Assembly: GCF_000420405.1 (NCBI RefSeq)
Contig: NZ_ATUW01000003.1
Span: 62,001-126,000, forward strand
DNA length: 64,000 nt
From: Winkia neuii subsp. neuii DSM 8576
GTDB taxonomy: Bacteria > Actinomycetota > Actinomycetes > Actinomycetales > Actinomycetaceae
Direction: 5' to 3'
Within the stretch, counting starts at the first letter, position 1, and the number at the start of each line of letters is the position of its first letter. The notes below the pieces were generated by a model. It was not told the DNA's origin. It saw only the letters and a program-made list of their open reading frames with translations, and did not search any database. Position numbers and translations under genes: made by a program. Of this stretch, positions 19,300-27,657 are shown in pieces.

Positions 19300-19690
19300 G
19301 AACTGGCTCCTCAACCAATGAACGGCCCGAAAGCTCCAACTTATTTGGAATGCCCCAGGGGCCAATTAGCGGCAAATCCACCCTGACCCTGGCTACGATC
19401 ATTCGCCTCCCTCTGACGGGGCTAGGTTGTTCGGTAAAACTGACCTTACCCACGTGAAGGCCGGGCGCACCCGTATGAATCATCTGCTTGACTCGAGCAC
19501 TCCCCTCGGCCTGGGAAGCACCGTAAAGACCGGCTCGGCGGGCCCCCTCGCCAGCGGCGTCAATACCTATTGCGCGCACATGCAGTATGAGTGCCAGCTG
19601 CAACAAAGCAAATACCACCGCCAGCAAAAGGGCGCTAATCATTACAAACGAGGCAATGGCCGAGCCGTCCTCGCGGACTTTACTAACCAA
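19289..19690 (-). CDS. TadE-like protein, degenerate prepilin site
   Basis: A 133-residue protein with an N-terminal hydrophobic helix (FVMISALLLAVVFALLQLALIL) and the family motif AIGIDAAGEGARRAGLYG. The prepilin region EDGSAIASF lacks the +5 Glu. It lies between the pilin gene (8-bp overlap) and the canonical TadE gene, so this operon has two TadE-type genes where the mycobacterial locus has one. Part of the Tad operon; minor pilin or anchor by inference. Confidence 0.7.
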   Translation of the reverse strand: MVSKVREDGSAIASFVMISALLLAVVFALLQLALILHVRAIGIDAAGEGARRAGLYGASQAEGSARVKQMIHTGAPGLHVGKVSFTEQPSPVRGRRMIVARVRVDLPLIGPWGIPNKLELSGRSLVEEPVRAF

Positions 19691-19859
19691 TTGTGATCAT
19701 CGAGATGGCGCGTTCGAACAGCCCCTTGAGCTGAGGGCCAGCCAGCGCCCAAATCATCATTACCAGCCCGGCCGTCATGACGGTAACCATTACCCATCCG
19801 GGCACGTCACCCCGTTCGCTAGGCCTACAAAGCAAATTTTTTAATCTTTGAATCTTCAT
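19683..19859 (-). CDS. Flp-type pilin, small DVPGW variant
   Basis: A 58-residue pilin-like protein at the Flp position of the operon, directly after tadC (2-bp gap) and overlapping the next gene by 8 bp. After a short basic leader (MKIQRLKNLLCRPSERG) comes DVPGWVMVTVMTAGLVMMIW, one hydrophobic helix, then an amphipathic end. Taking G17 as the cleavage site, mature position +5 is Trp22 where class IV pilins have Glu. The upstream frame is longer but ATG 19859 fits the spacing. It is likely the major subunit or a pilin relative. Confidence 0.68.
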   Translation of the reverse strand: MKIQRLKNLLCRPSERGDVPGWVMVTVMTAGLVMMIWALAGPQLKGLFERAISMITIG

Positions 19860-19861
19860 TT

Positions 19862-20746
19862 CTATTCCAATCTGAGTGCTAGTAGCCCCGGGTAGAGGGC
19901 AAACAGGACAACTTGGGGCAAAATCACGAACACTACCGGCAGGAGCATTGCAATTTCGCGTTTTCCGCCCTCTTCCAGCAACATTTTCCTGGTTTGGGCG
20001 CGACAATCTGCAGCTTGAGCGCGCAAAACTGGGGCGAGCGGGGTACCACGTTCCACAGCGGTCACGGTGGCGTCTACCAGGCGGGCAAGCGGCGGACAGT
20101 CGTTGGCCGCAGACACTTGAGTCAATGATCTAGACAGGGGCAGCCCGGCTTTCAGGGAGCGCGTTGCCCGCCCGAATTCTTCACCAATTATTCCCGAGGC
20201 CGAATCCGCCACCCGTTCCAGGGCAGCTGCCAGACCTTCCCCAGCACCTACCGCAAGCGCTAGCAGTTCTGCGGCATCGGGCAGTTGTGTGCTTAGCAAG
20301 CGCTGATGCCTTTTTGCCTGAGTAGTGAGGTACTGATCGCGTCCCAGCCCGCCGCCGAGGGCACCGAAGGCCACAAACAGCAGGGCAAATACGATTGGCA
20401 TTCCCCGGAGTGACATCGCGGCAATGGCCGCTACCACCGCCACTGCAGCTCCGCAGGCGGCCCAAAGCGCCTGGCTACGCCTAAATTCGCCAAGACTAAC
20501 GTGTCCTCCGGCTTGGCGGAGGCGCCGTTGCACAGATTGGTTAGTGGAACCGGCTGTATTGAGCACCGAACGAGCCCACTTCGATACTTGGAAGATCAGC
20601 TGCGCGAGGAGGGACTGACGTTTTTGCGAGGGCGAAAGGTAGGCGCTAACGCGCGAGGCCAGGGTATTGCGTCCGGCCCATATCCACCACAGCACACAGA
20701 GGATACCCAGGCCGAAGGCAAACCCCACGATTGCACCCCAGCTCAT
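19862..20746 (-). CDS. tadC: Tad pilus inner-membrane platform protein TadC
   Basis: A 294-residue type II secretion F-domain protein. Membrane segments occur at the N-terminus (IVGFAFGLGILCVLWWIWAG), around 100-150 and at the C-terminus (AMLLPVVFVILPQVVLFALYPG), with the cytoplasmic F domain between, marked by LPDAAELLALAVGAGEGLAAALERVA. TadB and TadC form the platform for the pilus. The start ATG 20746 overlaps the tadB stop as ATGA, which rules out the much longer upstream frame. Confidence 0.85.
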   Translation of the reverse strand: MSWGAIVGFAFGLGILCVLWWIWAGRNTLASRVSAYLSPSQKRQSLLAQLIFQVSKWARSVLNTAGSTNQSVQRRLRQAGGHVSLGEFRRSQALWAACGAAVAVVAAIAAMSLRGMPIVFALLFVAFGALGGGLGRDQYLTTQAKRHQRLLSTQLPDAAELLALAVGAGEGLAAALERVADSASGIIGEEFGRATRSLKAGLPLSRSLTQVSAANDCPPLARLVDATVTAVERGTPLAPVLRAQAADCRAQTRKMLLEEGGKREIAMLLPVVFVILPQVVLFALYPGLLALRLE

Positions 20747-21594
20747 GCCAGAGTCCTCTGGTCTTTGGGCAGCGCCGCAATTTTGACCATCGCCCAGTAG
20801 GCCAGCGCAGACATCACTGCCCCTGCCACCAAGACGGCTGCCCCTTTGGCACTTTGATAGGCTCGGGCGGCAGAAGGCTCCAGGCACATTAGAGCCACCA
20901 CGATCCACGGCGCTATTACTGCTAGACGAGCTCCATTTACTGTCCAAGATTGACGCGCTTCCAACTCTCCACGAGTGCGCGCATCTTCCCGCAGCAGGTG
21001 CGCCAGTGACCGCAGCAGTTCCGACAAGTCGGTGCCGCCAACGGTGTGCGAAATGCGCAGTGCCTCGACTATGCGGTCGCCAACCGGATCTGCCAGACGC
21101 TCTTTTAATTTAGTGAGCGCCTGGTCAAACTTCCCACTGGCCGCTAGATCGGAAGCAAAGGCCCGCATGTGCGGGCGCAATACCGCCGGCCCTTTTTGCC
21201 CCAGAGCAATAAGAGTGTCCGGCAGCGCCATGCCCGCACTTATACCCGATATCATGTCGTCTATAACGTCGGGCCACACCTGCCGCCTGGCTGCATAAAT
21301 ACGCTTCCTACGCATGTGAAGTAGGAATGTTGGCAGCCCCGCCACTCCAGCCCCAATAATGAGGGCAACCACTAAGGTTTGCGTGAGCGCAGCAACTAGC
21401 GCAAGCGTTGCAATGCCAGCGAAGGCACAGGCAAGCACATACTGGGTGGGACTAATGGAACTAACTTCGGCCGTGCGCAGCAGGTGTGCAACTTTGGAAG
21501 GGCCCCTAAATCTGCGCGGGGGCGGGGTGGTTTGCGACCGGTAAACCAGAACTATTCCCACACCTAGGAAGAAACCTATTGTCAACCCCATCAC
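20743..21594 (-). CDS. tadB: Tad pilus inner-membrane platform protein TadB
   Basis: A 283-residue F-domain membrane protein, paralogous to TadC. It has an N-terminal membrane anchor, two central segments (YVLACAFAGIATLALVAAL, LVVALIIGAGVAGL), the F-domain region DVIDDMISGISAGMALPDTL, and C-terminal segments. Its ATG overlaps the tadA stop (ATGA), and its stop overlaps the tadC start, so tadA-B-C are translationally coupled. Confidence 0.85.
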   Translation of the reverse strand: MMGLTIGFFLGVGIVLVYRSQTTPPPRRFRGPSKVAHLLRTAEVSSISPTQYVLACAFAGIATLALVAALTQTLVVALIIGAGVAGLPTFLLHMRRKRIYAARRQVWPDVIDDMISGISAGMALPDTLIALGQKGPAVLRPHMRAFASDLAASGKFDQALTKLKERLADPVGDRIVEALRISHTVGGTDLSELLRSLAHLLREDARTRGELEARQSWTVNGARLAVIAPWIVVALMCLEPSAARAYQSAKGAAVLVAGAVMSALAYWAMVKIAALPKDQRTLA

Positions 21595-22796
21595 GCCACC
21601 GCCAGCAGCTTTGCCAAGTCTAGCCCCACAGCTCTAAAACGCTCGTGGGCGTCGAGTGAACCACTGTCGCGCACCAGGCGACCATTGCGCGAGCTAAACA
21701 GCGTAGCCGCTTCCACTACGCCGCCCTCGACCCGCCCAGTTACGGCATTGACGTGATCAATGCGCCTAAACCCGCGCGCATCCATGCTCACGTGGACAAC
21801 TAGATCTAGTGCCTTGGCTACCGTGGGCACTACGAACCCCTCAGTAACGTTGGGGCCAGCAAGCAACGGCAGCACCGTTAGCTTCGACAAAGCCTCGCGC
21901 GCGGAGTTGGCGTGGATGGTGCACATGCCCGGGATACCTGAATTCAAGGCGATGAGGAGGTCGAGGGCCTCAGCAGAGCGAACCTCGCCGATAATCAAAT
22001 TAGAGGGGCGCATTCGCAAGGCTTCCTTTACCAGGTGCCGTAGCGTCACTTCGCCGCTTCCGTCCAAATTTGCCGGGCGAGTTTGCATCGCCACACAGTC
22101 GCGCGCAGACAGGTCCAGTTCAAAGACTTCCTCGCAAGTGACCACGCGCGCGGAGGCAGCAATAGCTCCCGCCAACGCTCGCAGCAGTGTGGTTTTCCCC
22201 GCCCCCACCGCACCGGAAACCAAAACATTGAGCCCAGCTAGTACCGCGGCGTCCAAAAACTGCGCCACCTGCGGGGTCAGCATGCCCAATTTCACCAACT
22301 CATTTAGCCGCCTAGCTTTAGCTACATGCTTCCTTATGTTTACCGACCAGTGGTGCGCAGCCACGGGTGGGATTACGGCGTGCAGGCGCTCGCCCGAAGC
22401 TAGCTGTGCGTCCACGAAAGGCGAGGACAAATCTAGGCGTCGCCCAGAGGCTCGAAGCATGCGTTCTACCAGTTCACGTACCTGAGTGTCAGTTAAAATC
22501 GCCGTTGTCAGCTGCGCTCTGCCGTCTTTTGCAACAAAAACTCGTGAGGGGGAATCAATCCATATTTCTTCTATAGTGGGATCGTCCAGGTATTTTTGTA
22601 ACGGCCCCAATCCACACACGTTGTCTACCAGTTGAAGAATGATTTCGTCGCGTTCTTCCGCCCGCAGGCTCTGGAAATTGTCTACCTGCGCTTCAATTAT
22701 TTTGCGGGCAGCCTCTGAATCGTTGGTGGGATCTACCGCCGAGTCGGATAAGGCTTGCTGCACCTGGGACGTGAGCGCAGCTGGCATCGTTGTCAA
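21591..22796 (-). CDS. tadA: Tad pilus assembly ATPase TadA/CpaF
   Basis: Secretion ATPase of 401 residues that powers pilus polymerisation. It has the Walker A motif SGAVGAGKTTLLRA, the Asp box CEEVFELDL, Walker B LIIGEVRSAEA and the His-box region MCTIHANSA, all in CpaF order. It is the first gene of the seven-gene operon. The TTG at 22796 or the ATG at 22787 could be the start; neither has a strong ribosome-binding site. The CpaE/Ssd-type MinD-like protein usually upstream is absent here. Confidence 0.92.
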   Translation of the reverse strand: MTTMPAALTSQVQQALSDSAVDPTNDSEAARKIIEAQVDNFQSLRAEERDEIILQLVDNVCGLGPLQKYLDDPTIEEIWIDSPSRVFVAKDGRAQLTTAILTDTQVRELVERMLRASGRRLDLSSPFVDAQLASGERLHAVIPPVAAHHWSVNIRKHVAKARRLNELVKLGMLTPQVAQFLDAAVLAGLNVLVSGAVGAGKTTLLRALAGAIAASARVVTCEEVFELDLSARDCVAMQTRPANLDGSGEVTLRHLVKEALRMRPSNLIIGEVRSAEALDLLIALNSGIPGMCTIHANSAREALSKLTVLPLLAGPNVTEGFVVPTVAKALDLVVHVSMDARGFRRIDHVNAVTGRVEGGVVEAATLFSSRNGRLVRDSGSLDAHERFRAVGLDLAKLLAVA

Positions 22797-23036: not shown

Positions 23037-24191
23037 GTGAACGATCGAGACAGGCTAACCCTTGCTGCGTTAGCGACGGCTGCCCTCCCCGAGCGCGAAT
23101 TTGTTGGCGTCAGCGGGCAGGCCATATCTAGCGGGGACGTAACCCGGGTGGACGTAGTGGATTCGACCGGCAAAAAGTGGACAGTAGCGCGCCCGGATTC
23201 CGAAGCAGCAGGAGCCGAGATCATCGGACAACTTTCAGTATTGCAGCTGCTTCTCAACTTCTCCAAAGAAGGAAAGATATCTTTCCAGGTTCCCACTCCG
23301 GCAGGGTGGGCGCCTCTATTGGAGGGCGGCAGAGCTGCCGTTTATCCTGCGCTCGAGGGCGCAAGCGCGGACGTCGAAGCCATGACGCCGGCATTGGCGA
23401 CTTCGTTTGCCGAAGGCATGTGCCAGCTGCACACGTTGCCTACAACCGCCTTTTCTGCACAGGGCGTACCCACTTTCACAGCTGAGGAATGCCGCAACCG
23501 ACTGCTGGCAGATTTAGATGAAGCCGCTCCCGCTCGCGTAATTCCCAAGCGGCTCTGGCAGCGTTGGGAGGAAATGCTCGAGAATGTGTCCTGGTGGCGT
23601 TTCAACCCGCGGTTTGTTCACGGCGCCATATCTGCCGACTCCGTCCTCTTCAAGGCCGGCCGGCTAAGCGCGCTACACGACTTTTCTAGCTGCCATATTG
23701 GCGATCCTGCCCGCGATCTTTCTTGGCTTATGGCGATTGCTTCTCCTGAGGCAATCGAAGCGGCCCTGCAAGCCTACTCCCCTGCTAAGCCAGACCCGCA
23801 CCTTGCCGAACGCGCCGAGCTCGATTCTGAACTTGCCTTAGTTCGCTGGCTCTTGCATGGGATGCACCGCAAGGACTTGCAAATCATAGAAGATGCCAGG
23901 CAAATGCTACGCGACTTAGCTGACCTGGTACTCGACAATCCCAACCCACGCGAATCGGTTTCGGCGGCCTTCCAGAGTGCCTCCCCCGTACTCGGCACCC
24001 CGGTGGGGGACTCTACGGCAGTCAACACTTCTGCGCAACCAAGTAGCGACGAGTCTAGCTCTACTCCGAGCAATGGCGAACCTGAGCAGAAGCGGGCCGG
24101 CGAGGCGGATTCTGAAGCTGTCACCACCGTTATCCCATTTGAACAGCTGGTTGCCGAGGGACACGCCGAACCCGAAAGTGACGAAAACTAA
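23037..24191 (+). CDS. APH-fold protein with lost catalytic residues
   Basis: A 384-residue protein with the aminoglycoside phosphotransferase/choline kinase fold. The C-lobe shows FVHGAISADSVLF where active enzymes have HGDxxxxNVL, so the catalytic Asp is Ala and the metal-binding Asn is Ser. The second motif is LHDFSSCHIGDPARDLSW, keeping the Asp and the GDPxxDL signature. The last ~75 residues are a low-complexity Ser/Thr/Glu tail. It lies upstream of the AdnAB helicase genes; a similar phosphotransferase is found in this region in other actinobacteria. The start is GTG with a TAGGCT hexamer 6 nt upstream. It probably does not phosphorylate substrates, so a binding role is more likely. Confidence 0.72.
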   Translation: MNDRDRLTLAALATAALPEREFVGVSGQAISSGDVTRVDVVDSTGKKWTVARPDSEAAGAEIIGQLSVLQLLLNFSKEGKISFQVPTPAGWAPLLEGGRAAVYPALEGASADVEAMTPALATSFAEGMCQLHTLPTTAFSAQGVPTFTAEECRNRLLADLDEAAPARVIPKRLWQRWEEMLENVSWWRFNPRFVHGAISADSVLFKAGRLSALHDFSSCHIGDPARDLSWLMAIASPEAIEAALQAYSPAKPDPHLAERAELDSELALVRWLLHGMHRKDLQIIEDARQMLRDLADLVLDNPNPRESVSAAFQSASPVLGTPVGDSTAVNTSAQPSSDESSSTPSNGEPEQKRAGEADSEAVTTVIPFEQLVAEGHAEPESDEN

Positions 24192-24202
24192 ACTCCGTCA
24201 CC

Positions 24203-24232
24203 TTGACACTGCAAAACTAACTTGCCTATAGT
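24203..24232 (+). promoter_or_regulatory. Strong sigma-A-type promoter
   Basis: TTGACA (24203-24208) and TATAGT (24227-24232) are separated by 18 bp, close to the vegetative consensus and the best promoter match I found in the window. It directs transcription of the small gene at 24324 through a leader of about 85 nt. Confidence 0.75.
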
Positions 24233-24241
24233 AAGCTTTTT

Positions 24242-24297
24242 GTGGTTGGGCAGAGGCTCAACCAGGAAGTTCCGGCCCAAACAGCGTGGCCCCTTCC
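24242..24297 (+). promoter_or_regulatory. Two-hairpin structured 5' leader
   Basis: Hairpin 1: TGGTTG (24243-24248) pairs with CAACCA (24259-24264). Hairpin 2: GGAAG (24265-24269) and GGCC (24274-24277) pair with GGCC (24288-24291) and CTTCC (24293-24297). The ribosome-binding site AGAGGAG follows about 12 nt later. No known riboswitch class was recognised. Confidence 0.45.
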
Positions 24298-24323
24298 GAA
24301 TATAGGAAAGAGGAGTATCAAAA

Positions 24324-24530
24324 TTGAATAAGTTCTACAACATTCGCGATTTGCAAGGATCCCGCCAGGCCAACTACCTGCGTCTGGATCGCCTTGCCGA
24401 CGCCGTTCGGCCCTGGTTTGCCGACACGGCAGATGCTAAGACCATGCAGGCTATTGCACTGTTGACTGACGATTCTAAGCGCGAAGCGGCATTGTCTTAC
24501 TTGGGATTGCAGCTTTCTAAAGCCGCCTAA
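24324..24530 (+). CDS. Small protein of unknown function (68 aa)
   Basis: I do not recognise this family. The 68-residue product is hydrophilic and predicted helical, begins MNKFYNIRDLQGSRQANYLR, has no Cys, no membrane segment and no signal peptide, and ends LSYLGLQLSKAA. The start is TTG 24324 with a good AGAGGAG site ~8 nt upstream. It is preceded by a near-consensus promoter and a structured leader, which suggests high or regulated expression. The last 14 bp overlap the convergent adnB gene. It lies between an APH-like gene and the AdnAB helicase, but any functional link is speculative. Confidence 0.7.
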   Translation: MNKFYNIRDLQGSRQANYLRLDRLADAVRPWFADTADAKTMQAIALLTDDSKREAALSYLGLQLSKAA

Positions 24531-27500
24531 ATATCCCTTCGACCTGTTTGCCAGTCCAGGCAGCAGTGTCCAATGTAACCCACGTGGAGCTGCCAACATA
24601 GACCAATGAGGCGTCGATGTTGGCAGCTTCTATACCTTCGGATTTCGCCCAGGCTAACCTATACAGTTCCAGCTGCACTTTAGCCGACTCCAAATCCTGG
24701 CCTACCGGAACGCGCCCGGTCTTCCAATCCATAATGTGCACGCGCCCAGTTTCTTTGGCACGCATTACGGCGTCTATACGCGCTATTATGCGCACCCCGG
24801 CAGCAATTATGTCGCGCTCGGCTTCAACTTCGAGAACCTGATATTTCTCCAACAAGCGCATGTCTAGCCAGTTTTGCTGCCACTTTTTCAGTCTCCGCGC
24901 TGCAGCCGGCTCCAGAGTTTCCGCCTGTTGTTCGTCTCTGCCGGTTAGGTGTCTCTCGACCCAGGAATGGAACACGGTACCCAAATATGCAGAATCCGAC
25001 GGCTCTGCTGGCACCGGCCTGCGCAATTGCATGGCCAACTCAGGCCCCAGATGCTGCACGGTGGTTGCAGCCATATGCCTAGGAAGGACAACCTGCGGGT
25101 GAGGTTTCTCCTTGGCCTCCGCCACTAGGAGCTTAGCCCAATGCAGATCTTCTTTAGATAAACGCTCTGCCGGATTATCCTGCGCTAGCTTAACTACCTG
25201 AGAGGCGACTTCTTGCAGCGCCAAATTCTGCTCGCTGGGTTCACCTGGCCAGCTCACTTCAACGTCTGGGGACGGAGCTGCCTCTACTAGCTGGGCAAGC
25301 TCAGCTTTATCTGGAAACGGTACTTCCACCCCCGGCAGAGGCCCAACCAAACCGGCTCTTACGGACTCGTCAAAAAACACCGAAGGCGCGGCAGGCCTGG
25401 AATTTCCCCCGCGTAGTGCCGCCCCTGTGAGCAACAAATTTTGCTTTGCCCTGGTGAACGCTACGTAGGCGAGCCTGCGATCTTCGATCAAATCGGCAAT
25501 GCCGTTGGCCTCTCGCAAGGCCGCAATAGCTTGGTCTACATCCTTGTGGGTGGGGGCAGGGCCGATCTGCAAATCCGGCAAAGTGAGCGCATCTGCCCGC
25601 ATCGAAGCGGGCAGCTCAGATTCGTCGGTGAGCCACCGAGAAGACGTACGCGTTCCTCCCTTTCGGGGGGCAGTAGAGGGCAACACCCCCTCGCTGAGAG
25701 CAACTACCGCTACCGAATCCCATTCGAGCCCCTTCGCGGCGTGAATAGTTAGAATTTGCACCACCCCAACTTGGGTGGGCACCTCCGGCATAGAAATACC
25801 GCGTTCCTCGGTGGCAGCGGCCTCGAGCCAGGCCAAAAAATCTTGTAGATCGCCCCCGCGAGAGGCGAAGTCGGACCCTACCGCTAAAAATTGCTCCAAC
25901 GCTAGGGAGGCCGTGGATTCGTTCCCCGCCAAGGCGGAATCCAAATCTAAATCCAATATCTGGATTGCCTTGCGCAGCAATACGGTCAGTGGCCCTGACA
26001 GCAAAGCACGGATTTCAGCCAGTTCGCGCCCTAGCTTTGCAACACGTTTTTTCCCCAACGCCGACAGCTGCTGCGGAATCCGCCCTAAACGTACGGCCTC
26101 GACGGCCTCAGCTAAGAAGGCATCCACGTGGCCTTCGCCGCCCTCGCTGGCAATGTCACGCGCCTGGTGCCACAGTGCGCTTATGTCGGTAGCCCCTAAC
26201 TTGGCCTTATTGAGCAGGCGCATCAGGCAATCGCCCCGCCCAGCATCAAAAGCTACCGTGAGTGCCGCAATCAAATCTGCCACCGCAGGTGATTCAATAA
26301 GCCCTCCAGCTCCCACTATGGCAGCCGGAACCTGTGCGCCTGCGAGGGCTTCGTAAATAGGTGCCATGGAGGCGCGGTTGCGGCAAAGCACGGCAGCTGT
26401 GCCCGAACGGTTCCAGTGATTCGCAAACCAGTTTGCGACCGCCTGCGCCTCCTGGACATCGGTGGCAAAATAGGCCCCCAGAACGGCCCCGGGTTGCGCC
26501 GACGGAGCCAAGGTCAATTTGGGAAGGTTTACCGGCGAATACGGGTTTTGAGGTAAGTGCGTGTTGGGCCTAGCTAGTTGATCGACCTGGACATTTGCCA
26601 CTTCCAACACAGCAGCAGAGTTTCGCCAGGCGGTGGTTAGTGGCTTGATATCTGCATCCTCGTTGGGTGCAAAACGTTCGGTGAACGAATCCAAAGCCAG
26701 GCGTGAGGCTCCTCGCCATTCGTAAATTGCCTGGTTGGGATCGCCTACAGCAGTGACGGGGTGATCGGCAAAAAGGGCAGACAAAAAATCGATCTGGTTG
26801 GCCGACGTGTCCTGAAATTCATCCAAAAAAACTTTCTGGTATTGCAGCCGCAACGTGTCGCGTACATCCGGGCAGCGGGAAATAATCTGGCGCGCGCCCC
26901 CAATTTGGTCGGCAAAATCAATCAGTGAGTTGGCCTGTTTGAAATCCATGTAGGCCTTCACTAGATCCATGTATTCGGCTCGCACGCGCAGCGACTCGGC
27001 TAAGTCTTGGGCGGCCTTGTAGGGAGTTTTTTTTCGCGGTACTGGGGCCGAGTCCAATATGTCGGCAGCGTTCGCCTGTAGCTCCGCCTTCACTTGTTCA
27101 ACGAACAGGGAATTGTCGGTCAGTTTCCCTGCTAGCGCTAGGACGGCACTAACTACCGAGGACGGACGTTTCTTGGTGCGCAGCGGCTCTTGCCAGTCCA
27201 TAACGATCTGGTTCATTATTTGCCAACGTTCCGCCTCGGTTATGAGCCGAGCGTCCGGATCTATGCCCACACGCAAACCGTAGTCGCGGCATATCTTACC
27301 CGCGAAGGCATTGTAGGTAGTGACTGTGGGCGGGTTCGTCTGTAACGCCCTCAGCTCCTCTTCGAAACCGGCGCTCTTGGCGTTCTGAAGAAACCGCCCC
27401 AACAAAGTCACAATCCGCGAGCGCATCTCTTGGGCAGCTTTGCGAGTAAAGGTCAATCCCAAAATGTTGCCCGGCCGCACAGCTTTGTTGGCTGCCAGAT

Positions 27501-27657
27501 AAACAGCTCTGGCTGCAATAGTTGCTGTTTTCCCAGCCCCCGCCCCAGCCACAACTAGTAGAGGAGTCATGGGGTGGCAGATTATGGATTCTTGCTGGGC
27601 AGCAGGGGCAAAACTAGTTCCAGACAGGGCGGCAACTTGGGCGGCTGTATAACTCAT
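24517..27657 (-). CDS. adnB: AdnB-like helicase-nuclease subunit
   Basis: Second subunit of the actinobacterial AdnAB end-resection machine, which processes DNA double-strand breaks. The 1046 residues contain a complete UvrD-type motor: Walker A GAGAGKT (38-44), motif Ia LTFTRKAAQEM, motif II LDEFQD, motif III GDPNQAIYEWRG, motif V TIHAAKGLEWDSV and motif VI YVAFTRAKQNL. A C-terminal RecB-type nuclease follows with FHSWVERHL (His), ARIDAV (Asp) and MDWKTGR (Asp-x-Lys). No Fe-S cysteine cluster is seen at the C-terminus. The start overlaps the adnA stop as ATGA. Confidence 0.9.
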   Translation of the reverse strand: MSYTAAQVAALSGTSFAPAAQQESIICHPMTPLLVVAGAGAGKTATIAARAVYLAANKAVRPGNILGLTFTRKAAQEMRSRIVTLLGRFLQNAKSAGFEEELRALQTNPPTVTTYNAFAGKICRDYGLRVGIDPDARLITEAERWQIMNQIVMDWQEPLRTKKRPSSVVSAVLALAGKLTDNSLFVEQVKAELQANAADILDSAPVPRKKTPYKAAQDLAESLRVRAEYMDLVKAYMDFKQANSLIDFADQIGGARQIISRCPDVRDTLRLQYQKVFLDEFQDTSANQIDFLSALFADHPVTAVGDPNQAIYEWRGASRLALDSFTERFAPNEDADIKPLTTAWRNSAAVLEVANVQVDQLARPNTHLPQNPYSPVNLPKLTLAPSAQPGAVLGAYFATDVQEAQAVANWFANHWNRSGTAAVLCRNRASMAPIYEALAGAQVPAAIVGAGGLIESPAVADLIAALTVAFDAGRGDCLMRLLNKAKLGATDISALWHQARDIASEGGEGHVDAFLAEAVEAVRLGRIPQQLSALGKKRVAKLGRELAEIRALLSGPLTVLLRKAIQILDLDLDSALAGNESTASLALEQFLAVGSDFASRGGDLQDFLAWLEAAATEERGISMPEVPTQVGVVQILTIHAAKGLEWDSVAVVALSEGVLPSTAPRKGGTRTSSRWLTDESELPASMRADALTLPDLQIGPAPTHKDVDQAIAALREANGIADLIEDRRLAYVAFTRAKQNLLLTGAALRGGNSRPAAPSVFFDESVRAGLVGPLPGVEVPFPDKAELAQLVEAAPSPDVEVSWPGEPSEQNLALQEVASQVVKLAQDNPAERLSKEDLHWAKLLVAEAKEKPHPQVVLPRHMAATTVQHLGPELAMQLRRPVPAEPSDSAYLGTVFHSWVERHLTGRDEQQAETLEPAAARRLKKWQQNWLDMRLLEKYQVLEVEAERDIIAAGVRIIARIDAVMRAKETGRVHIMDWKTGRVPVGQDLESAKVQLELYRLAWAKSEGIEAANIDASLVYVGSSTWVTLDTAAWTGKQVEGIFRRL

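Follow-up and report, generated by a model that had tools for sequence, protein, structure and literature searches.

What does a 68-codon gene that stands under its own promoter and behind a structured leader encode, and what is that leader for? Neither the small proteins of human- and animal-associated Actinomycetaceae nor their control by RNA has been well charted. In the window (the whole analyzed stretch of 64,000 nucleotides from Winkia neuii subsp. neuii DSM 8576), a motif scan of positions 23500-25200 yielded a single promoter match, a sigma-70-type promoter on the plus strand, TTGACA-18 bp-TATAGT (24203-24232; -35 box at 24203-24208, -10 box at 24227-24232), with 11 of 12 consensus matches, compared to a mean of 0.8 promoter matches scoring at least 9 in shuffled versions of the same region. 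The promoter is nearly identical in the nearest relative, genome G001 (TTGACG-18-TATAGT), despite the diverged spacer sequence. From a putative start about 7 nt past the -10 box, placed from the sequence, a 5' leader of approximately 85 nt (24239-24323, plus strand) would be transcribed, with two hairpins on the same strand: hairpin 1 (GGUUGGGC-AGAG-GCUCAACC; 24244-24263), delineated by folding and by comparison with G001, and hairpin 2 (24265-24297). The ribosome-binding site AGGAG (24311-24315, plus strand) is spaced by 8 nt from the TTG start codon (24324) of the small gene (24324-24530, plus strand; TAA stop at 24528-24530). The near-consensus promoter, the two-hairpin leader and the clear ribosome-binding site that had been proposed in the initial annotation were thus all recovered. 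The small gene and the adnA-like gene (24517-27657) are convergent and share the final 14 nt of the former (24517-24530), as many nucleotides as in G001; in G002, a third species of the genus of the window, 33 nt separate the two genes.

Between the window gene and its G001 counterpart, 22 codon changes are synonymous and 6 are non-synonymous, with third positions taking 21 of the 31 base changes; by these codon-level measures, therefore, the small gene behaves like one that is translated. When 59 related genomes were searched with the protein, 21 gave matches at E <=1, 11 of them at E <0.001 (a second match in G035 was taken as chance), and a family-wide search of 213 Actinomycetaceae genomes using an 11-row profile (E 0.01 cut-off) matched 70. 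After one of these 70 was dropped as a chance hit (G024, E 0.009, within a 696-aa frame), the family comprised a single-copy gene in 69 of the 213 genomes and in 10 of 36 genera (here as in all genome counts, related genomes are treated as separate); a lack of homologues, which the initial annotation had named as evidence against the gene, is not what was found. Among the named relatives are Schaalia, Gleimia europaea, Actinomyces urinae and Nanchangia anserum. Outside the family, no convincing homologue was detected in samples of 297 genomes of the order (some Actinomycetaceae among them) and 197 genomes of the class, which gave a single weak partial match (E 0.008, in a 371-aa frame). When the presence of the gene is mapped on a 36-row Pyk tree, 13 rows of which have the gene (the G001 row is omitted), 2 changes are required, vs a mean of 10.8 after shuffling; this agrees with a single gain and a single loss and comes close to one origin. 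As judged from this distribution, the gene is inherited vertically within one branch of the Actinomycetaceae. Thirteen genomes from genera lacking a match were also screened at the pyk locus, where no family-like frame that could represent a hidden homologue was seen by eye and no hairpin passed the filter; this screen also took in three genomes of the genus of the window. A phage origin was considered as well and abandoned, as tblastn with one family member as the query gave no match in 50,697 phage records.

The protein falls outside every family in the libraries searched, as had been anticipated: when 36 members were scanned singly, there was no significant match in Pfam, NCBIfam, PHROGs or PADLOC, the best E per library ranging from 0.014 to 0.059, each in one or two members, and the family profile matched no PDB sequence (best E 0.29). 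The initial description of the protein as helical and Cys-free holds in part. AlphaFold2, run with the window protein and 18 relatives, predicted a bb-aaa-b fold (pLDDT 94.5, pTM 0.79), with strands at residues 5-9, 15-19 and 62-66 in addition to helices at 21-32, 38-48 and 53-60; cysteine is absent from the window protein and present in 14 of the 65 homologues. A second modelled member has the same order of elements (pLDDT 85). In the first alignment, A16, P30, W31, F32, A43, L47, L60 and G61 are invariant and R53 is nearly so. For the two models, Foldseek found no structural match in the PDB at E 0.001, and the best VIA-align score among 354 chains was Z 2.3; neither comparison linked the protein to a known RNA-binding domain. 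Pieces of glycyl-tRNA synthetase that topped the PDB fold lists (E 0.45 and higher) and AcrVA3 as a fold neighbour (Z 2.3) were not trusted. The Pectobacterium phage PP101 protein A0A1J0MFG6, one of several uncharacterised phage proteins in BFVD, is like the small protein in size (Foldseek E 0.03, TM 0.62 by query length), but for none of these phage proteins is the sequence or fold match significant, so the likeness is weak evidence. Taken together, the searches and the models describe a family without a match among described families and with a confidently predicted fold.

Folded as a whole, the window leader is barely more stable than expected by chance (z -1.72; 13 of 200 shuffles equally good), and the main support for its structure is therefore comparative. 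The surroundings were fetched for 65 of the 69 gene-bearing genomes (the other four are not included), and these constitute the 65 loci and leaders analyzed here. A shared motif first became visible in the leaders of 64 homologues. It consists of a stem P1, an internal loop in which U[G/A]CC faces a single base, a stem P2 of 5 bp and an end loop of 7 nt, and is located about 50 nt ahead of the start codon, immediately 5' of a purine-rich ribosome-binding region. The internal loop reads TGCC in 33 and TACC in 19 of 60 leaders (52 together), and the end loop has the consensus RACCNAN, the RACC-like letters being kept while the stem pairs vary freely. Covariation was evaluated on an alignment of 42 of the 61 distinct leader segments, from which 3 segments of the genus of the window, 4 poorly placed or weak ones (L031, L090, L097, L099) and 12 near-duplicates were left out. 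In this alignment, 90% of the pair cells are paired, all 11 pairs show double, compensated changes, and the covariation score is 0.666 vs 0.259 for shuffled alignments, with none of 500 shuffles reaching the observed value; sliding the structure along the alignment cuts the pairing to 24-54%.

Because the motif locator itself sought pairing (it missed L094), a control count with all 65 leaders was added: 55 leaders reached a score of at least 12, compared to 5 of 1300 shuffles (0.4%) and 6 of 511 upstream regions of other genes, and all but one of the 55 elements that passed lie 44-82 nt before the start codon. Below this score are the window leader (WIN) and L024, L026, L031, L083, L088, L097, L099, L102 and L104. 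Promoter-like pairs with at least 9 matches occur in 27 of the 65 upstream stretches of homologues vs 102 of 1300 shuffles, and therefore a promoter of its own seems to be common across the small-gene family. The last 30 nt ahead of the start codon are on average 77% purine (maximum 97%) in the 65 leaders, with GAAGAAG repeats between the hairpin and the start codon. A pseudoknot involving the 7-base loop and its flanks was rejected, the longest complement being 4.2 vs 4.1 in shuffled sequence downstream and 4.2 vs 4.2 upstream. No Rfam covariance model matched over the element in the window stretch and 22 relative loci, where the scans gave tRNA and weak matches that lay elsewhere or scored far short of the gathering score, and nothing on either the gene or the element appeared among the papers that searches of the open-licence literature listed.

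A covariance model of the element, R1, matched 64 of the 213 genomes at E 0.05, in 59 of them at the small gene, i.e., in 59 of the 69 gene-bearing genomes, under strict filters that missed known copies such as that of G021, whose segment is in the model. Seven other matches were detected, in G009 (35.8 bits), G149, G152, G214 and G227 and as second matches in G177 and G231; by eye, no family-like frame lies behind any of the seven. As far as these scans indicate, the element is found with this gene and marks no other gene.

In the window, the region 24265-24297, folded alone, gives exactly the family architecture plus a bulge: P1 at 24265-24269/24293-24297, a UUCC internal loop (24270-24273) opposite C24292, and P2 at 24274-24278/24286-24291 with a bulged U24287, closed by the loop AAACAGC (24279-24285), which fits R-A-N-C. 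R1 gives no significant score on this copy (its best, 5.9 bits, is elsewhere in the leader). The G001 copy, with UCCC and a bulged A, has the same architecture and is too divergent for R1, and the copy of G002, which was held out of the model, scores 21.2 bits. On the strength of the matching architecture and the G002 score, we therefore hold hairpin 2 to be a diverged copy of the element, a judgement that comes from comparison and not from an R1 score of its own. Hairpin 1 folds well in the window, where its region has z -2.3, and there is one compensated change in G001 (a G-C pair replaced by A-U), but across the family it has no conserved sequence and only a weak folding tendency (z below -1 in 33 of 62).

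An element tied to one gene, with kept loop letters and freely changing stems and positioned between promoter and ribosome-binding site, fits a site that some partner recognizes; the small protein itself, present wherever the site is present, would be the simplest candidate. We tentatively favour, with confidence somewhat short of even, a reading in which the small protein is specific to this clade and its leader provides a dedicated site of post-transcriptional control that the protein itself most probably binds. Under this scheme, the element would act ahead of the ribosome-binding region; abundant protein would bind the internal loop and the end loop of its own hairpin, and such binding would limit translation or shorten the life of the mRNA, so that the protein would keep its own level constant. 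Ribosomal proteins and some RNA-binding proteins control their own level in this manner, via their own mRNA. As in such autogenous leaders, the element here is specific to the gene, the leader contains conserved paired RNA, and the protein is small and conserved; unlike those cases, the protein has no known family and the self-binding is putative. Against self-binding stands the median pI of the family, 5.1 (9.2 for the window protein), which is unusual for an RNA-binding protein; the missing likeness to known RNA-binding domains and the divergence of the window and G001 copies from R1 also count against this reading. Furthermore, pairing between the 3' strand of the hairpin and the ribosome-binding site is not general (mean -3.7 vs -4.6 kcal/mol in shuffled sequence); therefore the route from binding to a translation block is not evident, and a general anti-Shine-Dalgarno switch is not supported, given the lack of excess pairing. 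A bolder version, in which a new small fold recognises a new class of hairpins (U[G/A]CC and a RACCNAN loop) in its own mRNA, was born once in the ancestor of the branch and has been kept since, and possibly acts on further RNAs in trans, appears doubtful.

Letters kept in the internal loop and the end loop amid freely changing stems, together with the purine-rich (77%) ribosome-binding region behind the element, would also be expected if the leader were a receptor for a small molecule or ion (a riboswitch) or for another RNA-binding protein, with the small protein as the output. Known sensors usually control several genes, whereas this element is tied to a single one; no Rfam class was matched, and a riboswitch made of one 11-bp hairpin would be small, so that we consider a receptor possible and rather unlikely. 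In many bacteria, mRNA is protected by 5'-terminal hairpins, and a passive stability or translation-standby element acting without any ligand would agree with the lack of conserved sequence and the weak folding signal of hairpin 1 (z below -1 in 33 of 62), but the conserved letters of the internal loop and the end loop would then be needless, which makes this explanation improbable. A bistable leader confined to the genus of the window, in which hairpin 1 is extended and P1 opened such that CCUUCC covers the ribosome-binding site, is suggested by an alternative fold that is 2.8 kcal/mol lower than the enforced hairpin 2 in the window and 0.9 lower in G001; these differences are within model error, and 60 other leaders show no excess pairing, so we give this fold little credence. 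Although every hairpin also reads as an inverted repeat in DNA, an operator for a transcription factor is very improbable, since changes in the stems are compensated pair by pair, the internal loop has unequal sides (4 bases vs 1) and the element sits downstream of the promoter.

Across the 65 loci, lgt (57 loci) and pyk (55) lie upstream of the small gene and an ANTAR-type response regulator (48) and polA (45) downstream, the usual setting outside the genus of the window being lgt-pyk-ANTAR regulator-polA; pyk and/or the regulator are present at 59 loci, and these neighbours are all missing from one locus, which lies near a contig end. ANTAR targets, as described in PMC8164766, consist of two stem-loops with six-base loops carrying A1 and G4, and like the element here they are leader hairpins near a ribosome-binding site in actinobacteria. 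That the element is a target of the neighbouring regulator is nevertheless barely credible, because the P2 loop has seven bases rather than an A1/G4 six-base loop pair, such a hexaloop is not enriched (10 of 65 leaders vs 17% of shuffles) and two of them occur in none of the 65 leaders vs 1.4% of shuffles. With regard to other RNAs, the name of the Actinomyces-1 motif suggests hosts related to those analyzed here, and this motif contains a kink-turn according to PMC8191799, whereas the element has U[G/A]CC opposite one base and no kink-turn pattern that could be recognized by eye in its consensus; according to PMC7160235, an ncRNA-66 precedes genes for hypothetical proteins in Actinomyces and Rothia.

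The link to AdnAB and DNA-break repair that was originally suggested for the small gene did not survive this comparison: a kinase-like and an adnA-like gene adjoin it in only 3 of the 65 loci, all from the genus of the window. Comparison of the loci indicates that in this genus the small gene sits at another place and that the leader has moved along with it. An unnamed protein family and an unnamed covarying RNA element come as one heritable unit, and comparing leaders makes a gene testable that seems isolated when only one genome is viewed. The upstream kinase-like neighbour (23037-24191), initially called dead-kinase-like, matches Pfam APH above the cut-off (E 9.5e-18). It has a long acidic Ser/Thr-rich C-terminal tail, and in each of the three examined genomes of the genus it is a neighbour of the adnA-like gene. 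A tRNA-Leu (CAA) is located near the small gene in 9 of the 10 pyk-locus relatives scanned (e.g., L028, 4669-4744). Elsewhere in the window, the minus-strand frames at 19683-22796 resemble what we take to be a Tad/Flp pilus export set, with an ATPase and two membrane proteins.
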